A stretch of DNA of 64,000 bases from Eximiradius sp. (lineage in GTDB: Bacteria > Bacteroidota > Ignavibacteria > Kapaibacteriales > UBA2268), in the NCBI GenBank assembly GCA_937127445.1, contig CAKZLY010000015.1, positions 124,001-188,000 of the forward strand, written 5' to 3'. A program made the translations under genes and the position numbers. The notes beneath the pieces are model-generated. The model searched no databases. It saw only the letters and a list, made by a program, of their open reading frames with translations, and was not told where the DNA came from. Below, piece by piece: positions 2,038-44,240 of the stretch (the stretch's first letter is position 1; every line of letters starts with the position of its first letter).

Positions 2038-2070
2038 CAAGTGATACATCGGTATATTAGTTTATATAAA

Positions 2071-2110
2071 AAATAATGTTGCTACAAATAGCAACATTAT
2101 TTTAATTTTT
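2071..2110. terminator. Hairpin terminator between convergent murQ and the tatD-barrel ORF
   Basis: A 13-bp perfect stem (2071-2083 with 2090-2102) around a 6-base loop, with T-rich flank on the right and A-rich flank on the left. It can stop transcripts from both sides. Confidence 0.85.
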
Positions 2111-2135: not shown

Positions 2136-2885
2136 TCAAAATTTAGGATACCAAAGAATAGATAGGCGTGGAATTGAATAAAATGTTGAAATATCGGTTT
2201 TTCTAATATGATTTGGATCTTGTGGGTTTTTTCTTGGGTCGAATTCCAGATTAGTTTTTTGCAAAGCAAAATTTAGTTTCCATTCGAGCATAAAACATAA
2301 TATGCCTGCATTATTTAAGTCAATATTAACATTGAACCCTAATCCTGTATTTGCAGCTAATTTATTATCATTTTCATATTCTTTACGTCCGAATGGAAAT
2401 TCATCGGAATAAATTCTACGACCATATTTATTAATCAAGTAGGATAATCCAAGGATACCGTAAAAATTGACACGTCCATAAGGATTAGGAGAGATAAAAG
2501 AAGAGAATTCAATAGCGTGATGATGATTAGGGTCAACTTTGTATTTTTCGACATATTCAATACTTTTAGAATAATGATAAGAAGCAGCAACTGTTAAATA
2601 TTTAAGCACTCTGTAACTTGTAATAAACCCATATGAAACTAAACCATCATAAGAAATATCTTGCCCATCATCATAAGTTTCAACAATTGTATTAGTGCCG
2701 AGCATAGGACCAAAACCAAAAGTACGGGGATATAAATCGTAAATATCTTCTTTTGGTGAAGCATCTTCGAAATCATCATCATAAACTGTTGCTCTCGATT
2801 GAGCGAAAGCGGTTGTTGAGAAAAATAACAGGGAAATCAATAATATTGATAAATTAAAAAGCTTTTTTGCATTTTTAGTAGTCAT
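2136..2885 (-). CDS. Putative outer-membrane beta-barrel protein, internal in-frame start
   Basis: I propose that this 249-residue protein is translated separately from the ATG at 2885, codon 243 of the tatD ORF. In mRNA sense, a GAGG lies 8 bases before the ATG. From here the product has a textbook signal peptide: Lys-containing n-region (residues 2-9), a hydrophobic core ending STTAFA, and signal peptidase cleavage before Gln28. The mature part has alternating beta strands and ends in Lys-Phe, as outer-membrane barrels do. It resembles the outer-membrane beta-barrel proteins common in Bacteroidota; I cannot name its function. The n-region doubles as the conserved C-terminal helix of TatD. 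Translation as a fused protein only is the alternative. Confidence 0.7.
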   Translation of the reverse strand: MTTKNAKKLFNLSILLISLLFFSTTAFAQSRATVYDDDFEDASPKEDIYDLYPRTFGFGPMLGTNTIVETYDDGQDISYDGLVSYGFITSYRVLKYLTVAASYHYSKSIEYVEKYKVDPNHHHAIEFSSFISPNPYGRVNFYGILGLSYLINKYGRRIYSDEFPFGRKEYENDNKLAANTGLGFNVNIDLNNAGILCFMLEWKLNFALQKTNLEFDPRKNPQDPNHIRKTDISTFYSIPRLSILWYPKF

Positions 2886-3611
2886 CGAAATAACCTCATT
2901 TATTGGGATAGACTTTATTTCAGATATTTTCTGAGCAATTAATTTGAGAAACTTTGGTTCGTTACGCTTGCCACGATGTGGAATTGGAGCCATCCACGGA
3001 GCATCTGTTTCCAGAAGCAAGTTTTCGATAGGTGTTTGACGCACAACATTTGTTAGTTGAGTAGCATTTTTAAATGTAATATTTCCAGTAAAAGATATGA
3101 AAAAACCTAAATCAACGGCTTGCCGCATCATTTCTATATCGCCTGAAAAACAATGAAGAATACCACGCAAATTACCATCTTGATTTTGTTCCAGAATTTG
3201 CATCAAGTCTTCGTCGCTTTCACGGTTATGAATAATTATTGGCAGCTGTAAGTTTTTTGCGATAGCAATTTGGTCGGCAAAGCATTTTTTCTGAATATCA
3301 GTGGGAGAAAAGTCGTAATAGTAATCTAAGCCAATTTCTCCGATTGCAACAGTCTTATTATTTTCTTGAGCAATACTTTCTATTTCGTTTAAAACTTTCT
3401 TATTGACTTCAAAAGAATTATGTGGATGCACACCAATGCCGTTGAAAAGGCAATCGTAGCTGGAAACAATTTTCAGCAACGAAGCAAAAGTTTTAGGTTC
3501 GATGGCTGGAACGATAAGATATTCGACACCATCGTTAATTGCTTGATTTATAACATCATCTCGGTCTTTGTCAAATCTTTCTGTATCTATATGACAATGA
3601 GTATCAATCAT
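2136..3611 (-). CDS. TatD-family metal-dependent DNase fused in frame to an outer-membrane beta-barrel protein
   Basis: This 491-codon ORF holds two proteins. Residues 1 to about 254 are a full-length TatD/YcfH hydrolase, a cytoplasmic TIM-barrel metal nuclease. Metal ligands are visible: HCH at 5-7, Glu92 in GEIGLDY, His128, His153 in HCFSG and Asp203 in LETDAPW. The TatD fold should end near residue 254, but no stop codon follows. The frame runs straight on into a hydrophobic stretch, a cleavage-like AFA-Q site at 268-271 and a roughly 220-residue beta-rich C-terminal part ending in phenylalanine, typical of outer-membrane proteins. A shotgun fusion of nuclease and barrel makes little topological sense, so the barrel is probably made from the internal start at 2885 (separate entry). 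The 5' end overlaps bcp by 8 bases. Confidence 0.85.
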   Translation of the reverse strand: MIDTHCHIDTERFDKDRDDVINQAINDGVEYLIVPAIEPKTFASLLKIVSSYDCLFNGIGVHPHNSFEVNKKVLNEIESIAQENNKTVAIGEIGLDYYYDFSPTDIQKKCFADQIAIAKNLQLPIIIHNRESDEDLMQILEQNQDGNLRGILHCFSGDIEMMRQAVDLGFFISFTGNITFKNATQLTNVVRQTPIENLLLETDAPWMAPIPHRGKRNEPKFLKLIAQKISEIKSIPINEVISMTTKNAKKLFNLSILLISLLFFSTTAFAQSRATVYDDDFEDASPKEDIYDLYPRTFGFGPMLGTNTIVETYDDGQDISYDGLVSYGFITSYRVLKYLTVAASYHYSKSIEYVEKYKVDPNHHHAIEFSSFISPNPYGRVNFYGILGLSYLINKYGRRIYSDEFPFGRKEYENDNKLAANTGLGFNVNIDLNNAGILCFMLEWKLNFALQKTNLEFDPRKNPQDPNHIRKTDISTFYSIPRLSILWYPKF

Positions 3612-4074
3612 TTTGTAGTTTTTTTAGTTCTTCAATAATTTGCTGGGCATGGTTTTCAGGTTTAACTTTATAGTTAGCATACTTAATAATGCCGTCAGGC
3701 GAAATAATAAAAGTTGAGCGAATGACGCCAATATACTTTTTACCATACATAGATTTTTCGCCTATAGTATAAAATTTTTGACAAATTTCTTTACTTTCGT
3801 CGCTAATTAAATAAAAATTCAAATTAAATTTTTCAATAAATTTTTTGTGAGATAATGGGCTATCAGGGCTGATGCCAATGACGACAGCGCCAAGTTTGGT
3901 AATTTCTTCCATACCATCACGGAAAGAACAAGCTTCTTTAGTGCAACCAGAAGTATTATCTTTTGGATAGAAATACACAACAAGCCATTTCCCAGCGAAA
4001 TCATTACTACTAATAATTTCGCCATTAGCAGTATATCCGCTAAAATCGGGTGATTTATCATTAATTTTTAACAT
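3604..4074 (-). CDS. bcp: Thioredoxin-dependent thiol peroxidase, Bcp/PrxQ type
   Basis: A cytoplasmic peroxiredoxin that reduces hydrogen peroxide and organic peroxides with thioredoxin as donor. At 156 residues it has the normal PrxQ length. The peroxidatic Cys44 sits in KDNTSGCTKEAC and the resolving Cys49 is five residues on, which defines the atypical two-cysteine PrxQ class. An AGGAG lies at ideal distance before the ATG. The gene starts 8 bases after dnaX ends and overlaps tatD by 8 bases, so it is within the long minus-strand transcript. Confidence 0.95.
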   Translation of the reverse strand: MLKINDKSPDFSGYTANGEIISSNDFAGKWLVVYFYPKDNTSGCTKEACSFRDGMEEITKLGAVVIGISPDSPLSHKKFIEKFNLNFYLISDESKEICQKFYTIGEKSMYGKKYIGVIRSTFIISPDGIIKYANYKVKPENHAQQIIEELKKLQND

Positions 4075-44129: not shown

Positions 44130-44240
44130 GAAATATTTCGGGTCAAGCCCCTAACAGCTAAGAGTTGCCAAACCCCGCCAGGTTCGGAAGGAAGCAACGG
44201 TAGGCAAAATCTTAGAGTGTTCAGGTAAGCTTGGCCTTAA
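44130..44240 (+). ncRNA. ffs: Small bacterial signal recognition particle RNA
   Basis: Core at 44141-44236. The ends pair (GGTCAAGC with GCTTGGCC). The domain IV loop GTTCGGAAGGAAGCA has the universal GGAA tetraloop (44186-44189) and the asymmetric loop that binds Ffh. About 100 bases, no Alu domain, so the 4.5S type. The exact 5' end is inferred from the promoter. A T-rich stretch follows. This fills most of the 362-base gap between aspS and the porin gene. Confidence 0.95.

Follow-up and report, generated by a model that had tools for sequence, protein, structure and literature searches.

A conserved single reading frame joins a TatD family protein to a predicted outer-membrane barrel and may yield two products

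The DNA analyzed here (the window) is a stretch of 64,000 nucleotides from contig CAKZLY010000015.1 of Eximiradius sp., order Kapaibacteriales, class Ignavibacteria. Its minus strand carries an open reading frame in which a TatD domain, a signal peptide, and a predicted outer-membrane barrel follow one another:

2136..3611, minus strand: complete TatD-signal peptide-outer membrane barrel open reading frame (ORF), ATG start, 491 amino acids, no internal stop; single frame kept in relatives
2853..3611, minus strand: TatD nuclease domain, residues 1-253, from profile matches
2859..2903, minus strand: last TatD helix, residues 237-251, from an AlphaFold2 model of the full length
2893..2897, minus strand: putative internal Shine-Dalgarno sequence GAGGT (codons Glu239-Val240), from GAG codon conservation across genera
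2883..2885, minus strand: putative internal start codon ATG (Met243), Met conserved in relatives
2802..2885, minus strand: barrel signal peptide, 28 residues, cleavage site AFA before Q, from sequence; hydrophobic core and signal peptidase I-like site in nearly all fusions
2136..2801, minus strand: mature outer-membrane protein, predicted 8-strand barrel, Phe-terminated, stop codon included, from AlphaFold2 and Foldseek
3604..4074, minus strand: upstream gene, putative peroxiredoxin (bcp-like), from the ORF list and sequence
2070..2103, strand unassigned (scanned as the plus strand): terminator-like hairpin, 15-bp stem, near-palindromic, A/T runs on either side

The upstream gene, which we take from its sequence to be a bcp-like peroxiredoxin, runs 8 nt into the TatD gene before its stop codon ends, and no Shine-Dalgarno sequence precedes the TatD start (ATG 3611). 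The hairpin lies directly downstream of the fusion ORF and before a convergent SIS-domain (murQ-like) gene, and it is likely to be a bidirectional terminator, an inference made from sequence alone.

The first half of the protein is a complete member of the TatD family. Residues 1-253 match TIGR00010 over profile positions 1-252 of 253 with 289.8 bits (curated cut-off, 206), and the match to PF01026 (286 bits) reaches the end of that profile. The metal-site residues H5, H7, E92, H128, H153, and D203 are invariant in the 70 fusions compared, and a search of the window's own genome found only one TatD, the fused copy. Nuclease activity is inferred from these sequence features, without an assay. 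The N terminus, MIDTHCHID, carries no signal peptide of its own. In an AlphaFold2 model of the full-length chain, a confident TatD fold ends in a last helix (residues 237-251) that includes Met243, and this is followed by a signal helix at 254-268, a disordered stretch, and an 8-strand barrel; pLDDT falls below 50 at residues 268-289, a flexible, low-confidence stretch after the signal.

The residues beyond TatD read LSILLISLLFFSTTAFA up to the cleavage point, then Q and a domain of some 200 residues with WYPKF at its end. The product that would begin at Met243 reads MTTKNAKKLFNLSILLISLLFFSTTAFA up to the same point, then Q, with the same C terminus, and thus has both a Sec signal peptide (AFA before Q) and a C-terminal aromatic residue. 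Signal peptides were called by hydropathy, a regular-expression check of the cleavage site, and the structure model, not by SignalP. Modeled alone, the internal product gives a signal helix and an 8-strand barrel (mean pLDDT, 90.8), for which Foldseek returned OmpA (9fzd, E = 3e-7) as the best match and Ail and NspA as the next. The barrel half is accordingly a small OmpA-like 8-strand outer-membrane barrel as far as a model, not a solved structure, can predict. Against the Pfam families OMP_b-brl/OmpA_membrane the window protein scores 15 bits versus a gathering score of 21; PF13505 is matched by 16 of 76 relatives (best E = 6e-7). No match to the barrel was found in the plasmid collection. 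Its function is inferred rather than known, and the OmpA-like fold suggests that it could possibly be a small structural or adhesive protein of the envelope.

Searches recovered the fusion protein from all 40 relatives and, within the order, from 120 of 123 genomes, where every complete locus, with the exception of that in genome G212, is one open frame. When 117 TatD loci were oriented (from the order, from families f13 and f19 of the class, and from the named relative L031, Ignavibacteriae bacterium HGW-Ignavibacteriae-4, which is nearly identical to family member G193 and so places the window's family in Ignavibacteriota), all but G212 were open through the barrel, so that the two parts run together without a stop in more than 110 loci from 10 families of the order and from f13 and f19. 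Because relatives lack a stop, the continuous frame is not a sequencing error. An assembly or sequencing artefact, or a stop lost in one strain, is all but excluded: the same frame, also present in single-contig assemblies (e.g., G025, G033, G172, and G189), recurs at about 40 to 50% identity across more than 110 independent genomes, and no support for an artefact was found. G212 is a natural fission: its TatD has a stop codon after HFFDVK, and the barrel, equipped with a signal peptide of its own, is encoded on a separate contig, which shows that the split state is viable.

An earlier reading of the window, made without database searches (the sequence-only reading), had proposed that the TatD frame runs unbroken into a signal peptide, that ATG 2885 lies within TatD with GAGG 8 bases before it, and that the product has an AFA cleavage site and a barrel ending in Phe. 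All three points held, G212 alone among the relatives having the two genes apart. Two details are corrected: the strand is minus, and in the internal product the mature N terminus falls at Gln29 rather than Gln28.

Several lines of evidence indicate that the internal start is under selection. GAGG occupies 2897-2894, separated by an 8-nt spacer from the ATG at 2885-2883 (Met243). Codon choice was compared in 33 genera of four families (f1, f8, f9, and f10), one representative per genus, with the expected GAG count taken from each genome's own usage in the fusion ORF. Glu239 is encoded by GAG in 23 of 26 genera, whereas 6.2 would be expected (P = 4e-13), a result that ranks first of 935 codon-by-column tests across the ORF (runner-up, 1e-4); in an earlier version of the test the Glu239 column was first of 65. 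Glu codons at other columns are near saturated (agreement of 0.68 versus 0.64 if independent), so the genera can be treated as nearly independent. Met243 is present in 57 of 63 copies (41 of 47 in f1, 12 of 12 in f9, 3 of 3 in f8, and 1 of 1 in f10), whereas none of 60 unrelated control TatDs has Met at this position, and the GAG bias at the Glu239 position is likewise absent from unrelated TatDs (0.46 versus 0.42). Resampling of synonymous codons within genomes was not significant for most single genomes, but that test is underpowered because GAG makes up about one-fifth to one-quarter of Glu codons, and the cross-genus column test was used instead.

In f1, the predicted Shine-Dalgarno strength is -6.3 kcal/mol at the internal start versus -0.8 kcal/mol at TatD's own start, and a sequence this strong precedes only 2.3% of in-frame internal ATGs in the window. 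Shine-Dalgarno use is weak in the window's genome as a whole, with such a sequence at 13 of 47 first ATGs. The CCUCC anti-Shine-Dalgarno was found in relatives G186, G189, G033, and G036; the pattern had no hit in the assembly that contains the window, which probably lacks a complete 16S end. Together, these data show that the internal Shine-Dalgarno and start are conserved beyond coding need in f1, f8, f9, and f10, while the short product itself is inferred, there being no expression data.

In other lineages the pair has moved or is missing. G193 to G196 and L031 carry it elsewhere, as GAGGTTAAGAATATG; G033 has AAAGGA..ATG and G154 has CGAGGAG..GTG; and family f2 has GCGGAG..ATG 8 codons upstream of the window's position (range, 6 to 8 codons). 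The codon-column test in f2 gave P = 9e-6, which does not exceed the background that relatedness produces elsewhere in f2 and f7, and the relocated f2 Shine-Dalgarno is therefore suggestive only. The internal Shine-Dalgarno-start pair is weak or absent in f4, f5, f6, most or all of f7, f13, f19, and most of f3, and six f5 genomes and G209 lack the internal ATG and keep the frame. The basic n-region, hydrophobic core, and cleavage site are nevertheless kept in f4, f5, f6, most of f7, f13, f19, and G209. Internal initiation is therefore not universal and not the whole story, and in f5, which has frame and signal without an internal ATG, the full-length chain must be productive.

These observations bear on two rival explanations. 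In the first, the barrel would come exclusively from Met243, and the full-length chain would be a tolerated by-product, degraded or left as a tailed TatD, with the fusion persisting by frame lock. The strong Shine-Dalgarno-ATG pairs in f1, f8, f10, and part of f9 (suggestively in f2) and the weakness of TatD's own start favor it; we consider it unlikely, as the f5 genomes and G209 retain frame and signal peptide without the ATG, and a TatD with invariant catalytic residues that is the sole copy here implies that the long form must be tolerated or used. In the second, solely the full-length chain would be made and split by signal peptidase, the internal ATG and GAGG being incidental. Retention of frame and signal in f4 to f7, f13, and f19 without the internal start supports this pure polyprotein, and the hepatitis C virus (HCV) core-E1 junction is a precedent (PMC5402940), but it too is improbable, for it leaves both the selection on GAG239 and the presence of Met243 in relatives but not in controls unexplained.

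The reading that we prefer, and regard as likely, is a dual-output gene, in which a full-length chain is cut by signal peptidase and internal initiation adds barrel in most lineages. The frame, its conservation, the selection on the internal Shine-Dalgarno, and the anatomy of the signal peptide are shown; translation of both products, cleavage, the fate of the TatD tail, and the ratio of products are inferred, and the barrel fold is predicted. Translation from ATG 3611 would give a cytosolic TatD fold, an internal signal peptide, and a β-barrel; the signal would insert as a hairpin, the barrel would be exported, and signal peptidase I would cut after Ala270 of the long chain, leaving TatD in the inner membrane by its hydrophobic tail and releasing the mature outer-membrane barrel. 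Independent initiation at Met243 through the GAGGT within TatD would give the barrel precursor (MTTKNAKKLF...AFA, cleaved before Q), so that two routes would lead to one identical mature barrel, made in excess of TatD, with internal initiation possibly gained or retained in lineages that need more barrel. The layout is that of a polyprotein, with an internal signal peptide and cleavage site downstream of a TatD that has no signal, although cleavage is inferred without proteomics; both the membrane-tailed TatD and the cutting of the long fusion are inferences beyond the reach of sequence tests. The window also encodes a bacterial small SRP RNA (44141-44239; RF00169, 64 bits), so cotranslational targeting is available to the organism.

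In the dual-output model, the motif T-x-N-A-K-K-L-F of the C-terminal TatD helix would serve as the basic n-region of the export signal. A single stretch of codons, read in one frame, encodes both the last helix of the enzyme and the export signal, so a stop codon restored between the parts for one gene would break the other; placed after the TatD helix, it would fall inside the signal peptide, which explains why none is present. The sequence-only reading had proposed that this helix is read twice, which is supported by the position of Met243 within it, and that one mRNA could make a tailed cytoplasmic nuclease and an exported barrel. The latter is supported with amendments and without expression evidence: what trails TatD in the primary product is the whole barrel, and signal peptidase cleavage of the full-length chain is thus needed or likely.

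Conservation of the frame would also be accounted for if the fusion stayed uncleaved and worked as a nuclease anchored across the envelope by an outer-membrane barrel. This reading is very unlikely given that TatD has no N-terminal signal, that the signal peptidase-like site is conserved, that a flexible, low-confidence stretch (268-289) follows the signal, and that the two parts are split in G212. A bolder, order-wide version of the dual-output model, in which the twice-used helix and two routes converge on one outer-membrane protein and TatD is held at the inner membrane by its leftover signal, coupling a DNA repair-type nuclease to envelope biogenesis, remains tentative, and we lean slightly against it.

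Nested genes with internal initiation are known, such as ClpB-short and SsaQ-short (PMC11005335) and the Ms6 endolysin embedded in lysA (PMC3111421). Like these "genes within genes," the locus has an internal start in the same frame and a common stop codon; the precedents, however, usually yield a shortened form of the same protein, whereas the short product of this locus would be a different protein bound elsewhere, and the shared residues would form a helix of the enzyme in the long product but a cleavable signal in the short one. The fbcH gene of Bradyrhizobium, encoding cytochromes b and c1, is a bacterial polyprotein cleaved by signal peptidase. It shares with our locus two proteins in one frame and an internal signal peptide between them, but it joins two subunits of one membrane complex, whereas here a soluble nuclease precedes a barrel, and fbcH is not known to have an internal start. 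At the HCV core-E1 junction the C terminus of a cytosolic protein is likewise the signal peptide of the next (PMC5402940), but that system is viral, uses the eukaryotic endoplasmic reticulum, and lacks internal initiation. No relevant publication on a TatD-outer-membrane fusion or on Kapabacteria proteomics was found in the literature searched. With translation and cleavage inferred, the locus appears to be a new, clade-wide variant of both in-frame nested genes and signal peptidase-cleaved polyproteins.

The locus is a testable example, spanning a clade, in which two unrelated proteins bound for different places share codons within one frame. It illustrates how a signal peptide can arise from the basic C-terminal helix of an enzyme, and a nuclease with a membrane tail is among its predictions. 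Gene finders that keep the longest frame would record only one long TatD, which would leave the outer-membrane protein invisible in these genomes; scanning for conserved internal Shine-Dalgarno sequences before internal signal peptides could reveal similar hidden exports.

Outside the order, f13 of the class also carries the TatD-barrel fusion, and a barrel search of 198 genomes of the phylum found it only in the order and f13, apart from two hits elsewhere at E of about 5e-4 that span just 43 to 63 positions, mostly the signal-peptide end. In the f19 fusions (L127-L131, L221, L222, and L228), the signal peptide is followed by a long coiled-coil-like stretch rich in Arg and Glu and then by a distant or different barrel, at best distantly related to that of the window (E = 4e-4). 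TatD elsewhere in the class stands alone or continues in frame into a radical SAM domain, and the barrel was not found in the solo-TatD and radical SAM families searched. TatD-radical SAM fusions occur in f14, f16, f18, f20, f21, f23, f24, and f25 (L209-L218, L223, L224, and L037); like the window fusion they are in-frame C-terminal extensions of the same TatD, but the partner is a cytosolic enzyme and there is no signal peptide. Their presence in many related families makes TatD a fusion hotspot in the class. In a FastTree TatD tree, the solo families f11, f26, and f27 adjoin f13 and fall, with moderate support, among the fused copies, a placement consistent with an old fusion and later losses. 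The solo TatD of f11 (L213, L220, L226, and L227) is directly followed by an ABC ATPase gene resembling lptB, an envelope-biogenesis gene.
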